Assembly: GCA_021848345.1 (NCBI GenBank)
Contig: JAJZUV010000001.1
Location: 1 to 64,000 of the forward strand
DNA from: Pseudomonadota bacterium
GTDB taxonomy: Bacteria > Pseudomonadota > Gammaproteobacteria > Burkholderiales > Burkholderiaceae_C
Direction of reading: 5' to 3'
DNA length: 64,000 nt
Shown here: positions 2,290 through 42,444 of the stretch, piece by piece
Layout: each line of letters opens with the position of its first letter
Position numbering within the stretch: the stretch's first letter is position 1
The notes under the pieces: model-generated
Databases searched by the model: none
Seen by the model: only the letters and a program-made list of their open reading frames with translations
Told to the model about the DNA's origin: nothing
Program-made: the position numbers and the translations under genes

Positions 2290-5200
2290 TCAGGACGACT
2301 GGTGGTCGTTCTCGGGCAGATCGAGTCGCGGCAGCGCCTTGCGCGTCTCGACCAGCACCAGCGGCCCTTCCTCCTGCGCGGCGCGGGGTTTGCGCTCGCG
2401 CGGCGCCTGACGCGGCTGCGGCGCCTGGCGAGCCTTGCGTCGCGCCTGTTCGACGCGCTCGGGGTCGGACTGCACCCATTGCAGGCCGGCCGTTTCCACG
2501 ACCGCCCGCAACTGCTCCACCGGCAGCGTTTCGGCCGGCTGCGCCGCGCTCTGGAGAGCCTCCGGCTCGGCCGCGGCCCTATCGGCCTGCGCGGCAGGTT
2601 GTGCCGCGGGGTGGGCGATCTCCGCCACGACCGCGACGGCCGGTTGCGGTTCCTCCGCGTACGGCCGCTCGCCGGCGGCGCCCGGCTCGGGCGCGACGGC
2701 CGGCCGTTCGACCGCGGCCTCGACGGCTGCGCCCTGCAGGCTGGGCGTCGCGCTCGAGGACATCGTGAACGATGGTTGCGACGCGGTTGCCGATTCCGCG
2801 GCGAACAGGCCCGGCTGCTCCAGCAGCGGCCGCGGCGACGCGGACGGCTCCTGGGCGGCGACCGGGGCTGACGCGAACCCGGATGCAACCACCTGCTCGG
2901 GCGTGGCCTCGTCGGCGGCCTCGGCGGCCTCGGGGGACGGCTCCTCGCCGGCTTCGGCGGAGACCTCGTCGCCCTGCAGGCCCTCGGCGCTTGCCGCATC
3001 CTGTCCCCGACCGCGGCCGCCACGACGGCGGCGGCGGCGACGCGCCGGCTCCGCGTTGGAGCCCTCGGCCCCTTCGGGCAGGGCCTGGTCGACCCTCGCG
3101 GCGGCGGCGGCTTCCTGCTCGGCGGCAGGCGCTTGGGCAGGCGTGGTGGATGCCTGCTCGGCCGAGGCCAGGGTCAGGCCGAAGCTCTCCCAGGTCTCGA
3201 CCCCTTGCTCTGCCTGTTCCTCACGCTGTTCGCGCGGCGCGCGAGCCGGTCGTTCCGCCCGCTCACCACGGTCCTGGCGTTCGGCTCGTTCGGCCCGGTC
3301 CGGGCGTTCTGCGCGTTCGGCACGCTCCGCGCGGGGCGGGCGGTCGGCGCGTTCCGGGCGTTCGGCACGTTCGGGGCGTTCGGTACGTTCCGGGCGTTCG
3401 GTACGTTCCGGGCGTTCGGCACGTTCCGGGCGATCCGCACGTTCCGCACGCTCGCCACGGCCACCGCGGCCACGCCCACCGTTCGCGCCGCCGCCGTTGC
3501 CGGCAGCCGGGGCGGCGCTGGCCGCGCCGGCACCACGGCGACCTTCGGCCCCGTTCTCGCGGCCGTCGCCACGGCGGCCCTGGCCGCGGCCGTCGCGGCC
3601 GTCGCGGCCGCGTCCGCGGCCTTCACCGCGCGCCGACGCGGGCGCCTCGGCTTCGGCCTTGGGCGCGCTCGCGGGTGCGGGCTGCGCAGCCGGTTCGGCG
3701 GGTGCCAGTACGCGGCGCAGCCAGCCGAACAATCCGCCCGACGCGGCCTGTGCCGCCGGCGCCACCGGGGCAGGGGCCGGGGCCACGACGGCGGGGGGCT
3801 TCTCGGGCGCCGGCGCCGGGCTGGGCGCCGGACCCTCGGGGGTGATGCCCCGCACCAGCGCTTCCTGGCGCGGGCGCTCGTCCTTGGCCTTGCGCAGGAT
3901 GGTCGTCTCCTGTTCCAGTTCTTCCGCCATGCGGTAGCTGGCGGGCAGGTTGTCCAGGCGCGGGTCGTCGTGCTTGAGGCGCTCGAGCTTGTAGTTCGGC
4001 GTCTCCAGTTGCTTGTTCGGTACCAGCAGCACGGCCACGCGCTGGCGCAGTTCGATCTTGGCGATTTCGGCGCGCTTCTCGTTGAGCAGGAACGAGGCGA
4101 CCTCGACCGGCACCTGCACGTGCACCGCGGCGGTGCCTTCCTTCATCGCCTCTTCCTGGATGATGCGCAGGATCTGCAGGGCGCTGGAATCCGTGTCGCG
4201 GATGTGGCCGGTGCCGTTGCAGCGCGGGCAGGTGACGTAGGCGCCCTCGGACAGCGCGGGGCGCAGGCGCTGGCGCGAGACCTCGAGCAGGCCGAACTTG
4301 GAGATCTTGCTGGTCTGCACGCGCGCGCGATCCTGGCGCAGGCAGTCGCGCAGCCGGTCTTCCACGGCGCGCTGGTTCTTGGCTTCATCCATGTCGATGA
4401 AGTCCATCACGATCAGGCCGCCGAGATCGCGCAGGCGCATCTGGCGGGCGATTTCCTCGGCCGCTTCCAGGTTGGTGCGCAGCGCCGTGTCCTCGATCGC
4501 GGTGCCGCGCGTGGAGCGCGCGGAGTTCACGTCGATGGCCACCAGCGCCTCGGTGTGGTCGATGACGATGGCTCCGCCCGACGGCAGGTTCACCGTGCGC
4601 GAATAGGCGGTCTCGATCTGGTGCTCGATCTGGAAGCGCGAGAACAGCGGCAGGTCGTCGCGGTAGCGCTTGACCCGCCCGACGTTGTCGGGCATCACGT
4701 GCGCCATGAACTGGTGCGCCTGGTCGTAGATGTCCTCGGTGTCGATCAGGATCTCGCCGATGTCGCTGGTGAAGTAGTCGCGGATGGCGCGGATGACCAG
4801 CGAGGACTCCTGGTAGATCAGGAAGGCGCCGCGCTGGGAATTGCCGGCCTCCTCGATCGCCGACCACAGCTTGAGCAGGTAGTTCAGGTCCCACTGCAGT
4901 TCCTCGACGCTGCGCCCGATGCCCGCGGTGCGGGCGATCAGGCTCATGCCGTCGGGGTACTGCAACTGCTCCATGGTCTCGCGCAGTTCCTGGCGGTCGT
5001 CGCCCTCGATGCGCCGGCTCACGCCGCCGCCGCGCGGATTGTTGGGCATGAGCACCAGGTAGCGCCCGGCCAGCGAGATGAAGGTGGTCAGCGCGGCGCC
5101 CTTGTTGCCGCGCTCCTCCTTCTCGACCTGCACCAGCATTTCCTGGCCTTCGCGGATCACGTCCTGGATGCGCGCCTGCGAGGCCGGCACGCCTTCGCGG

Positions 5201-28379: not shown

Positions 28380-28801
28380 ACGCACGCCTGTACGGCGTCG
28401 GCACCGACGTGTGCGACCTGCGGCGCATCGCGCAGGCCTGGGAGCGCCACGGCGAACGCTTCGCGCGGCGTATCCTGGGGCCGGCCGAGCAGCAGGTGTT
28501 CGCGGCGCGCCGGGCTCGCTCGCCAGCGCGCGGCACCGCCTACCTGGGCACGCGTTTCGCGGCCAAGGAGGCGCTGTCCAAGGCGCTGGGCCTGGGCCTG
28601 CACATGCCCATGAGCTGGCAGGCCTGCGAGATTCTCAACGCCCCGGGCGGTCGCCCGCAGGTCAGCCTGCACGGCGCGCTGGCCGCCTGGTGCGCGCAGC
28701 GCGGACTCGCGCTGCATGTGAGCATCAGCGACGAGACCGACACCGCGGTGGCCTTCGTCGTCGCCGAGATCCTCGAAACCACGCCGGACCCTTCCGCATG
28801 A
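28376..28801 (+). CDS. acpS: Holo-ACP synthase
   Basis: A 141-aa phosphopantetheinyl transferase activating ACP (acpP at 16.5 kb). It has GVGTDVCDLRRI with the metal-binding Asp, the RFAAKEALSKALG motif, and a conserved VSISDETDTAVAFVVAE end. It overlaps pdxJ by 4 bases, the classic pdxJ-acpS pair. Confidence 0.96.
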   Translation: MNARLYGVGTDVCDLRRIAQAWERHGERFARRILGPAEQQVFAARRARSPARGTAYLGTRFAAKEALSKALGLGLHMPMSWQACEILNAPGGRPQVSLHGALAAWCAQRGLALHVSISDETDTAVAFVVAEILETTPDPSA

Positions 28802-29862
28802 ATCTGCCCCACGCTCCGCTGTTCATCGACGTCGCCGGATGCGAGCTCGCGCCGCGCGAACGCAAGCGCCTGCGCGATCCGCTGGTCGGCGGCGTGATCC
28901 TGTTCGCGCGCAATTGGGAGTCGCGCCGCCAGCTGGTCGCGCTGACCTCGCAGATCAAGGCGGCGCGCGCCGACCTGGTCATCGCGGTGGACCACGAGGG
29001 AGGGCGGGTGCAGCGTTTTCGCAGCGACGGCTTCACCGTGCTGCCGCCGATGGCCTCGCTGGGGCGCCTGTGGATGCGCGACCCCATGCGCGCCGTTCAG
29101 GCCGCCGGAGCGTTCGGACGCGTGCTGGGCGCCGAACTTCGCGCCTGCGGCATCGACCTGAGCTTCACCCCGGTGGTCGATCTGGACTGGGGGCGATCCC
29201 AGGTCATCGGCGAGCGCGCGCTGCATTCCGATGCGCGGGTCGTGGGGCTGCTGGCGCAGGCGCTGATCGCCGGGCTGCAGGCGGTCGGGCTGGGGCACTG
29301 CCTGAAGCATTTTCCCGGCCACGGCTGGGCCGAGGCCGACTCCCACGTCGCGCTGCCGGTGGACCGCCGCGCGCTGTCGCGCATCGTCGAATCCGACGCG
29401 GCTCCCTACGGCTGGTTGCGCCACAGCGCGCGCGCGGTGATGCCCGCGCACGTGGTGTATCCGCGCGTGGACTCGCTTCCCGCCGGCTTCAGCCAGCGCT
29501 GGCTGCAGCAGGTGCTGCGCGAGCGCCTGGGCTTTCAGGGCGCGATCATCAGCGACGACCTGACCATGCAGGGTGCGCGCGAGGTGGCGGGCGACACGGT
29601 GCAGGCGCTGCTGCTGGCCCTGCGCGCCGGATGCGACATGGCCCTGGTCTGCAACCTGGCACCGCTGGACGGAGGCGCGGCGCTGGACGCCTGCATCGCC
29701 GGATTGCGCGAGGCCGAGCGGCGGGGAGACTGGCAGCCCGATGCGCTGGCAGCGGCTCGCCGCGCCGCGCTGCTCGCCACCCAGGCGCCTCTGGGCTGGG
29801 ACGACCTGATGCTGGACGCCGCCTACGTGGGCGCGCTGGACGACGTCGCGGCGCTGGCCTGA
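28798..29862 (+). CDS. nagZ: Beta-N-acetylhexosaminidase NagZ
   Basis: A 354-aa cytoplasmic glycoside hydrolase family 3 enzyme that removes N-acetylglucosamine from anhydromuropeptides during cell-wall recycling. It has VDHEGGRVQRF, the KHFPGHGWAEADSH loop with the His-Asp catalytic dyad, and the nucleophile Asp in AIISDDLTMQGA. Works in the same recycling pathway as mpl, encoded 6 kb away. Overlaps acpS by 4 bases; last gene of the run. Confidence 0.96.
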   Translation: MNLPHAPLFIDVAGCELAPRERKRLRDPLVGGVILFARNWESRRQLVALTSQIKAARADLVIAVDHEGGRVQRFRSDGFTVLPPMASLGRLWMRDPMRAVQAAGAFGRVLGAELRACGIDLSFTPVVDLDWGRSQVIGERALHSDARVVGLLAQALIAGLQAVGLGHCLKHFPGHGWAEADSHVALPVDRRALSRIVESDAAPYGWLRHSARAVMPAHVVYPRVDSLPAGFSQRWLQQVLRERLGFQGAIISDDLTMQGAREVAGDTVQALLLALRAGCDMALVCNLAPLDGGAALDACIAGLREAERRGDWQPDALAAARRAALLATQAPLGWDDLMLDAAYVGALDDVAALA

Positions 29863-29887: not shown

Positions 29888-31348
29888 TCAGGGATAGAAC
29901 AGGTAGACCGTGTAGGAGGCCGCCGGGTCCCCGCGCAGCGCGAGGTCGAGGCGAATGTGCAGTTCCGCCGCGGCGGCGAGCCCCGCCTCCAGACGCGAGC
30001 GGACCTGGCCCGGATCCAGGCCCTGCGCGCCCAGGTATTGCTCGGGCGAAATGACCTTGCGAACCAGCAGCCGGTCCGCATCCCCGCCCGAGCCCAGGCT
30101 GAGCTGCAGCCACGGATAGGCCACCGCGTGCGCTCCCCGGTTGTGCAGCGAGACGGTCAGGTGCAGGCGCGACGGGCCGCTGGGCGACATGGACGAGGCG
30201 TCGATGGCCAGGTCGGTTGCGTCGCGGGGCGGAGCCAGGCGGCAGCCCGCCGCCGCGCACAGCGCGGCCAGAGCCGGGCGCGACGCCGGCCAGCGCGCCG
30301 CGAGGGAATCCCTCCAGATCCAGGCAGCCTGCCCCGCGCCGGCCAGCACCAGGAGCACGAGCAGCACGCCCAGCAGGGCGCGCACCCACGGGCGCGACCA
30401 GCGTTCCCGTCGCCTGGCCTGGCGCACGAAACCGGGTTCGAAGTCCGGGTCGAGTCCGGGCTCCACGCGTCCGTCGGGTGCATGCGCGGCCAGCGAGGCC
30501 GCGAACTGCCCGGTCTCGTTCGGGGCTGCCTCGGCCTCGTGCCCCGGCGACGCGTCCAGGAATGCATGCTCGGCGGGCTGGTCGTCCTCCGGCACATGTG
30601 CCGGCAGGGTCGGCGGGTGGTCGCGCGCGTCGTCCGCCGGTTGTTCCTCGTCGATTTCCTCGGCGTGCAGCCAGGCGGTGTCCGCCAGCCCGTCGAGCAC
30701 CGAGCCCGCCGGCTCCTCGGGGAATTGCGCGCGCTCCGGCGCGGTGTCCAGCGCGTCGACACCGGGAAAGTCGCCGAGGTCGTCCAGCCAGCGCTCCGCC
30801 GGCGGCGCATCCGACCACGCGGGCTCCGATGCGGACCGTTCATGCTCCGCTCCGGGAGCAGACCCGGGGGGCGGCTCGGCCGGAGCCTCGGTCGGAATCT
30901 CGGTCGGAATCTCGGTCGGAATCTCGGTCGGAATCTCGGTCGGAATCTCGGTCGGAATCTCCGCCGGAACCTCGGTCGGAATCTCGGCCGGAACCTCGGC
31001 CGGAACCTCGGCCGGAACCTCGGCCGGAACCTCGGCGGGAACCTCGGCCGGAACCTCGGCGGGAACCTCGGCGGGAACCTCGGCGGGAACCTCGGCGGGA
31101 ACCTCGGCGGGAACCTCGGCGGGAACCTCGGCGGGAACCTCGGCGGGAACCTCGGCGGGAACCTCGGTCGGAACCTCGGTCGGAACCTCCGGCCTTGCCG
31201 GTTGCGCCTCGAATTCGAATTGCGCGGCCGCGGCGTCGAAGGCCTGGCCGCAGCGCCCGCAGCGCACCCATCCGCCGCTGAGCAGCAACTGGTCGCGTAC
31301 CAGCCGGAAGGCGGTGTCGCAATGCGGGCAGCGGGTGGCGAGGGGCAT
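29888..31348 (-). CDS. Zinc-ribbon DUF3426 membrane protein with tetrapeptide repeats
   Basis: A 486-aa protein. The N-terminal zinc ribbon (MJ0042 type) has C7/C10 and C30/C33. Residues about 54-157 are 26 near-perfect copies of Pro-(Ala/Thr)-Glu-(Val/Ile), encoded by a 12-bp tandem repeat. An acidic region follows, then one transmembrane helix (about 328-350, [21 protein letters not shown]) and a periplasmic DUF3426 domain of about 130 residues. Zinc-ribbon/DUF3426 proteins follow prmA in most Burkholderiales; the function is unknown. The repeat lies on the cytoplasmic side, so it would form a charged rod between the metal-binding head and the membrane. Homologues normally have a short linker here, so the expansion is the odd feature. 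Confidence 0.85.
30877..31188 (-). repeat. 12-bp tandem repeat, 26 copies
   Basis: Exactly 26 contiguous 12-bp units of the form CGGNSGGAAYCT (plus strand). Six CGGTCGGAATCT copies cluster at 30889-30960, mixed CGGCCGGAACCT copies follow, nine identical CGGCGGGAACCT copies span 31057-31164, and two CGGTCGGAACCT close the array. The 30877 unit and the 30961 unit each carry a substitution. All copies are in frame. Confidence 0.98.
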
Positions 31349-31377: not shown

Positions 31378-32280
31378 TCAGCCCCGCACGGGGCCCGCCA
31401 GGCACACCCAGCCGTCGAGTTCGGCCCAGACGCCCAGACTCGCATGGGGTGCGTAGACCTCGATCAGTTCCTCGGCCTGGCGCTCCAGGATGCCCGACAG
31501 CACCAACTGGCCGCCCGGCCGCGCGCGCGCGGCCAGCACCGGCGCCAGCAGGCGCAGCGGAGACGCCAGGATGTTGGCCACCACCACGTCGAAGCGCTGG
31601 GCCGGCAGTTCGTCGACGTGGCACACGTGGCGCAGGCGCAGCCCGTTGGCCTCGGCGTTCAGGCGCGTGGCCTGCACGGCGTCCGGGTCGATGTCCACCG
31701 CGTCCACCGCCTCGGCGCCCAGCAGGGCGGCGCCCAGCGCCAGGATGCCGGAGCCGCAGCCGTAGTCCAGCACCTGCCGGTCGCGCAGCGACCCATGCCG
31801 CAACAGCCAGCGCAGGCACAGCTGGGTGGTCGGGTGGGTGCCGGTGCCGAAGGCCAGGCCGGGGTCCAGGCGAAGCACCATCGCGGCGCCGGCCGGAGCT
31901 TCGTGCCAGCTCGGCACGATCCACAGGCGCTGGTCGACGCACACGGGCTGGAACTGCGACTGGGTCAGGCGCACCCAGTCCTGCTCGGCCACTTCGCGCT
32001 GGCGCACTCCCCGCAGGTCCGGCAGCACGCCGTCGGCCAGCAGGCCCAGCAGCGCGGCGTCGGCGCCGGACTCGTCGGCGAACAGCGCGCGCACCAGATT
32101 GTCGCTCCAGGCCGCTCGCGGCTGCTCCATCCCGGGCTCGCCGAACAAGGCGCGCTCCTGCTCGGAGCCCGCCAGGCGATCCTCCACGTCCACGCTCAGC
32201 GCGCCCAGTTCGAGCAGCGCGTCCGACAGGCGCAGCGCCAGATCCTGTCCGGCGGCGATCAGCACTTCGCGATAGGGCAT
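31378..32280 (-). CDS. prmA: Ribosomal protein L11 methyltransferase
   Basis: A 300-aa SAM-dependent methyltransferase trimethylating ribosomal protein L11. The N-terminal substrate-recognition domain is about 1-95, then the Rossmann methyltransferase fold with [33 protein letters not shown] and NILASPL (the N-I-L catalytic loop). ATG 32280 gives the usual MPYREV start. 17 bases after accC, as in other Burkholderiales. Confidence 0.96.

Positions 32281-41055: not shown

Positions 41056-42444
<1,389 letters not shown>

Follow-up and report, generated by a model that had tools for sequence, protein, structure and literature searches.

We examined a 64,000-nucleotide stretch of DNA, referred to here as the window, from a bacterium of the order Burkholderiales. 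On the reverse strand of the window, at positions 29891-31348 with the stop codon at 29888-29890, is a gene encoding a 486-amino-acid protein composed of a zinc ribbon, a linker, a membrane helix, and a DUF3426 domain. The zinc-ribbon head belongs to the Zn_ribbon_5 family (residues 3-39, 31232-31342, reverse strand; Pfam PF13719, E 1.1e-14; NCBIfam MJ0042_CXXC, E 3.9e-12) and contains four cysteines, C7, C10, C30, and C33. The linker carries a tandem array of 26 units of 12 bp encoding E-[V/I]-P-[A/T] (30877-31188, reverse strand), seen both with TRF and in the sequence itself. Past the array, a pattern scan located a conserved 10-residue motif (30767-30796, reverse strand). There is no lysine in the linker. 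A single membrane helix was predicted at 30320-30379 (reverse strand) from a hydropathy peak of 2.3, its exact ends being approximate, and was followed by the DUF3426 domain (residues 329-482, 29903-30364, reverse strand; Pfam PF11906, E 2.9e-35). In the Caulobacter control genome, PF11906 gave a match only below the curated cut-off. Because an Arg-rich stretch precedes the helix, the positive-inside rule would place the zinc-ribbon head inside the cell and the C-terminus outside. When the full-length protein was searched against solved structures, the only matches were chance ones and repeat look-alikes, and a profile search with the C-terminal part found nothing credible (two matches, best E 0.88).

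The gene is located 29 bp downstream of an open reading frame on the same strand that we take to be prmA (31378-32280, reverse strand), and the two are probably carried on one shared transcript. On its other side lies a convergent open reading frame, presumably a nagZ-like gene (28798-29862, forward strand). Of 41 related loci or fragments of genes searched with tblastn, the window's own included, 35 gave a prmA match; the remaining six were fragments or loci at contig ends. A nagZ-like match was found in 27 of the 41, again counting the window's own, but in none of the loci from the family and order levels.

The tandem array in the window

The preliminary description of this DNA had reported 26 contiguous 12-bp units inside the DUF3426 gene, between the metal-binding head and the membrane helix. 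The 312 bp of the array comprise exactly 26 units, all in frame, and Pfam matches and hydropathy place them between the zinc ribbon and the predicted helix, as described. The reported blocks of identical units were also recovered, with units 3-11 (nine copies) being identical, units 20-25 (six copies) sharing another variant, and intermediates lying between them. The unit given there, Pro-Ala-Glu-Val, holds for the most part, but Val is replaced by Ile in seven units and by Ala in one, and Ala is replaced by Thr in nine. TRF reported the array at 30875-31194 with a period of 12, 26.6 copies, 94% matches, and a score of 435, compared with a maximum of 88 among 100 dinucleotide shuffles of the window. 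With slightly stricter settings, the array was the highest-scoring row over the 424 kb of contig scanned.

The codons of the array are unusual for the locus. GTT is the codon for all 18 Val residues and ATT for all 7 Ile residues, whereas in three neighbouring genes, which we take to be prmA, accC, and the nagZ-like gene, GTT accounts for 2 of 88 and ATT for 0 of 58. Since these codons are shared within the array and nearly absent from its neighbours, the units derive from one or a few founders. We also compared four arrays of the EVPx type from different species, taking one genome per species as in all our species comparisons. The mean identity among units within a species was 0.88 in G000, 0.90 in G027, 0.92 in G002, and 0.77 in G009, and the means between species were 0.79-0.82 among G000, G027, and G002 and 0.69-0.72 with the decayed array of G009. 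In each of the four, the units were on average more alike than they were to the units of any other species, which would fit turnover by slippage. The shared rare codons, the runs of identical units, and the likeness of units within species support the earlier suggestion of a recent expansion from founder units. The accompanying idea that copy number could change in frame also holds between species, where unit counts and unit types differ, and a repeat number fixed in all relatives is excluded at this level of comparison.

The copy number, or the array itself, could also have been produced by short-read assembly. The linker region is hard to assemble, since 8 of the 26 genus assemblies break or gap there: in three genes the linker contains a 100-N gap (G007, G013, and G018) and in five a contig ends inside it (G001, G008, G017, G019, and G025). 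For this gene, the length seen in draft assemblies is unreliable. However, the longest exact internal repeat in the window's array is 106 bp. As common short reads are longer than this, ordinary reads could resolve the array, with the exact number of 26 being an assembly-based count. In addition, the units bear ordered variants, the contig is 425,862 bp long, and a similar yet distinct array is present in G027, the closest relative found. We consider an artefact highly improbable.

Other repeats were observed in the window and elsewhere in the same genome. A protein that we take to be RNase E-like contains 9-, 18-, and 27-bp repeats in its C-terminal part (window positions 3246-3454), encoding ERAERPE-like units. 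The open reading frame at 41056-42444 contains PQ-rich and poly-Gln repeats near its C-terminus (42102-42353). A nearly perfect 81-bp direct repeat of about two copies lies elsewhere on the window's own contig (C2:324733-324887, L193:733-887). A second match in the genome, on contig C8 (L002:1493-1612), is an in-frame 12-bp array (TRF, 10 copies) whose GAGQ units lie at the C-terminus of a mechanosensitive channel of the MscS family; we rejected it as a related array, the two being unrelated.

Arrays across the genus and the order

To place the array among its relatives, we searched for DUF3426 in 160 genomes sampled from the order, of which 139 gave a match, and in 28 genus genomes, of which 26 did, including the window's own. 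The two genus exceptions are G004, which gave no match, and G006, where only an end fragment of 35 residues was found. Order genes were retrieved from 138 of the 139 genomes with a match, the exception being the window's own genome, and a second copy in G161 was left out. In 126 of these loci, the zinc ribbon, linker, and helix could be delimited; the other 12 could not be parsed in this way. An array was called strong if it had a TRF score of 90 or more within the linker.

Strong linker arrays were found in 18 of the 26 genus genes, including the window's own (12 in parsed genes and 6 beside gaps or contig ends), and in 10 of the 126 parsed order genes. Among the 12 unparsed order loci, one (L065) has a strong AP array with a TRF score of 220; in the remaining eleven, no score reached 90 in the stretch retrieved. 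The AP array of L065 (1111-1220, genome G067) reaches the contig end, and the zinc-ribbon half of the gene is absent from the contig. Within the same family, one of seven loci has a strong array, consisting of PEL units (L027, TRF 112). The eight genus genes lacking a strong array have none or a minor one (G003, G011, G014, G020, G021, and G023), a weak one (G026), or a weak one together with a gap (G007). As these make up 8 of the 26 genus genes, the array is evidently not needed.

The units vary by clade on a tree built from the helix and DUF3426 part of the protein. The window's own gene has EVPA/EIPT units, G027 and G002 have EVPP/ELPP units, and G009 has the decayed EVPx form. EP units occur in G010, G015, G016, G005, and G017, EPVP units in G012, VEAPA units in G022 and G024, EVP units in G018 and G025, and EPA/EPV units in G019 and G008. 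The unit of G013 is 84 bp long. The array of G001 (L017:1-106) is built of SP/TP units and is the sole non-acidic genus array tested; its SP units pass into TP units until a contig end cuts it. We rejected contig C90 of G019 as the source of the second half of that genome's gene, as it is a separate repeat-bearing region.

The position of the array also varies. Of the 30 genus loci scanned for the 10-residue motif pattern, some of which are gene fragments, 12 contain it. The array precedes the motif in ten of these 12, although the array of one (G007) is weak. In the other two, G010 and G015, the array follows the motif, which is located only 44 residues past the ribbon. As arrays can occur on either side, there are two slots around a fixed motif. 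The linker measured 177-285 amino acids in the 13 measurable genus genes that have an array, strong or weak (one of them has a 100-N gap), and 347-395 amino acids in five genes lacking a strong array. Linker length is not conserved, and we dropped the idea that it is. Since linkers are long whether or not an array is present, the tunable linker length proposed in the preliminary description is at most a hypothesis.

Composition of the arrays

The arrays may have arisen by neutral slippage in a disordered linker that is free of constraint, where GC-rich repeats would form and decay without hindrance and their Glu-Pro make-up would simply mirror the words of the linker and the local DNA. In keeping with this, some genes lacking a strong array still have long linkers, and other genes of the genus carry in-frame 12-bp arrays, including one for an Hpt-domain protein (L205, TRF 701) and the MscS-family channel gene of the window's own genome. 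The genus seems to be repeat-prone in general, which may explain part of the picture.

However, the composition of the arrays differs from that expected of the linkers. When the short-unit genus arrays were put by eye into eight clade groups, on a tree with open forks and with labels set by the analyst, units containing both Glu and Pro were found in 7 of the 8 groups, compared with 0.79 expected from same-length words taken from 116 non-array order linkers (P = 1.4e-7). Merging the three EP groups as one origin gave 5 of 6 (P = 6e-5), and even the harshest merge gave 3 of 4 (P = 0.003). For the short-unit arrays of the order, such units were found in 5 of 9, compared with 0.65 expected (P = 9e-5); the four lacking Pro or Glu comprise three AP arrays and one EAAS array (L111). 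This test omitted G013 for its 84-bp unit, L110 for its long unit, and L027 as a member of the same family. Given the SP/TP array of G001, the four of nine order arrays that lack Pro or Glu, and the omission of L110, Glu-Pro is not required.

Frame and codon usage, analyzed with G013 and L110 left out, also argue against a neutral origin. In 15 of 17 genus arrays, none of the other five reading frames is as acidic as the one in use; G025 shows a tie, and G001 is the exception. Among single-base variants between units in 27 arrays, 34 were silent and 20 changing at Glu and Pro codons, compared with 11 and 22 at other codons (P = 0.009). In the 17 genus arrays alone, the counts were 28 and 20 compared with 10 and 19, which is borderline (P = 0.06), and the silent excess at Glu and Pro codons is only suggestive. 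These results suggest that what the spacer is made of counts for more than its precise sequence or its length, and we regard purely neutral slippage as possible but rather unlikely.

A 43-copy 12-bp array was observed in the Hpt-domain gene (L205:849-1391, genome G018). It has QEPA/QEPV units and a 108-bp higher-order period, and the protein has three Hpt-domain matches.

A proposed spacer of selected composition

We consider it somewhat probable that the array serves as a cytoplasmic, acidic, Pro-rich spacer of a one-pass membrane protein, remade by slippage and under selection on its composition. The spacer, most likely cytoplasmic, links the zinc-ribbon head to the short motif, the predicted helix, and DUF3426. 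Replication slippage would create and re-create the arrays, and selection would retain those that are acidic and Pro-rich, because a chain of this kind would remain extended, soluble, and unfolded, comparable to the Glu-Pro stretch of TonB. In this way the zinc ribbon, probably a protein-binding head, could be kept off the membrane and reach a cytoplasmic partner, DUF3426 would act in the periplasm, and the exact length and sequence of the spacer would be only loosely constrained. A further and more tentative proposal, which we see as a reasonable possibility, is that the linker is a slot refilled repeatedly by newborn arrays, in which charge and Pro are selected rather than sequence, period, or position.

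A similar architecture has been described for ZitP of Caulobacter crescentus, which has a Zn_ribbon_5 domain at residues 1-37, a membrane helix at residues 106-127, and DUF3426 (PMC5182063, PMC5182065). In ZitP, PopZ is bound by the zinc ribbon, and CpaM recruitment and pilus assembly depend on DUF3426 (PMC5182063, PMC5182065). The window protein shares with ZitP the domain order, the single membrane helix, and the four zinc cysteines, both domains having been found here by Pfam; unlike ZitP, it has a longer linker with a tandem array. We compared the head with chain 2nb9_A, which is labelled only 'Uncharacterized protein' and which we took as the ZitP ribbon because its residue numbers fit PMC5182065. 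In an ungapped alignment to this chain, which is a weak match (E 0.098), W35 corresponds to F37, K18 to Q20, R24 to G26, and R34 to A36, and only R27 is kept (R29). A search for PopZ (PF10691) at E 0.001 found no match in 31 genomes, including the window's own genome, which is 94% complete; the Caulobacter control was positive. With the PopZ-binding Trp35 replaced by Phe37, three of the four basic-patch residues (K18, R24, R27, and R34 in ZitP) differing, and no match to PF10691, we dropped the idea of a ZitP orthologue working with PopZ. As the PopZ-binding residues are mostly absent and PF10691 is unmatched, the window protein would seem to have the architecture of ZitP in common but not the PopZ module.

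The basic patch of ZitP also bears on whether the acidic array might be an intramolecular partner of the zinc ribbon, covering its basic face and tuning the binding of a partner, with copy number setting the affinity. The head is Arg-rich in sequence, the array holds 26 Glu, and the basic patch of the ZitP zinc ribbon is required for PopZ binding (PMC5182065). However, just one of the four patch residues is kept in the window protein, and in G010 and G015 the array lies past the conserved motif, farther from the head. Such contact is, in our judgement, quite unlikely. The reading of the array as a spacer has parallels in other proteins. The Glu-Pro and Lys-Pro stretches of TonB have been described as polyproline-II rods (PMC10771500). 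Both TonB and the window protein have a Glu-Pro-containing spacer in a one-pass membrane protein, but the TonB linker is periplasmic and has a Lys-Pro half, whereas the linker here is on the zinc-ribbon side, probably cytoplasmic, and lysine-free.

Archaeal Borg elements have been described to carry in-frame tandem repeats that evolve fast, arise independently, and give rise to disordered regions, and homologous proteins there often use the same amino acids (PMC9879509). The arrays studied here share these features; they differ in occurring in bacterial genomes, in one gene and its linker, and in recurring across a genus and more rarely across an order. In the full-text literature searched, DUF3426 was named only in the ZitP papers (PMC5182063, PMC5182065). 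Among publications on tandem repeats in Thiomonas, none concerned such an array by title, many of the listed publications on Glu-Pro repeats dealt with trypanosomes or LAG-3, and a literature search for GltJ returned no match. The combination found here is that of a ZitP-like protein with the recurrent birth of mostly acidic, Pro-rich arrays in what would be its inner linker.

Most disordered linkers evolve too fast to reveal what selection favors in them. Repeated birth of different arrays in one linker of one gene family shows which properties are free and which are mostly retained: the unit, the period, the copy number, and the side of the motif vary, and the combination of acid and Pro largely persists. 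If the proposed reading is true, the genus and its order would provide a natural replicated experiment on spacers selected for composition, in which the array may set the reach of a membrane-tethered zinc-ribbon head.
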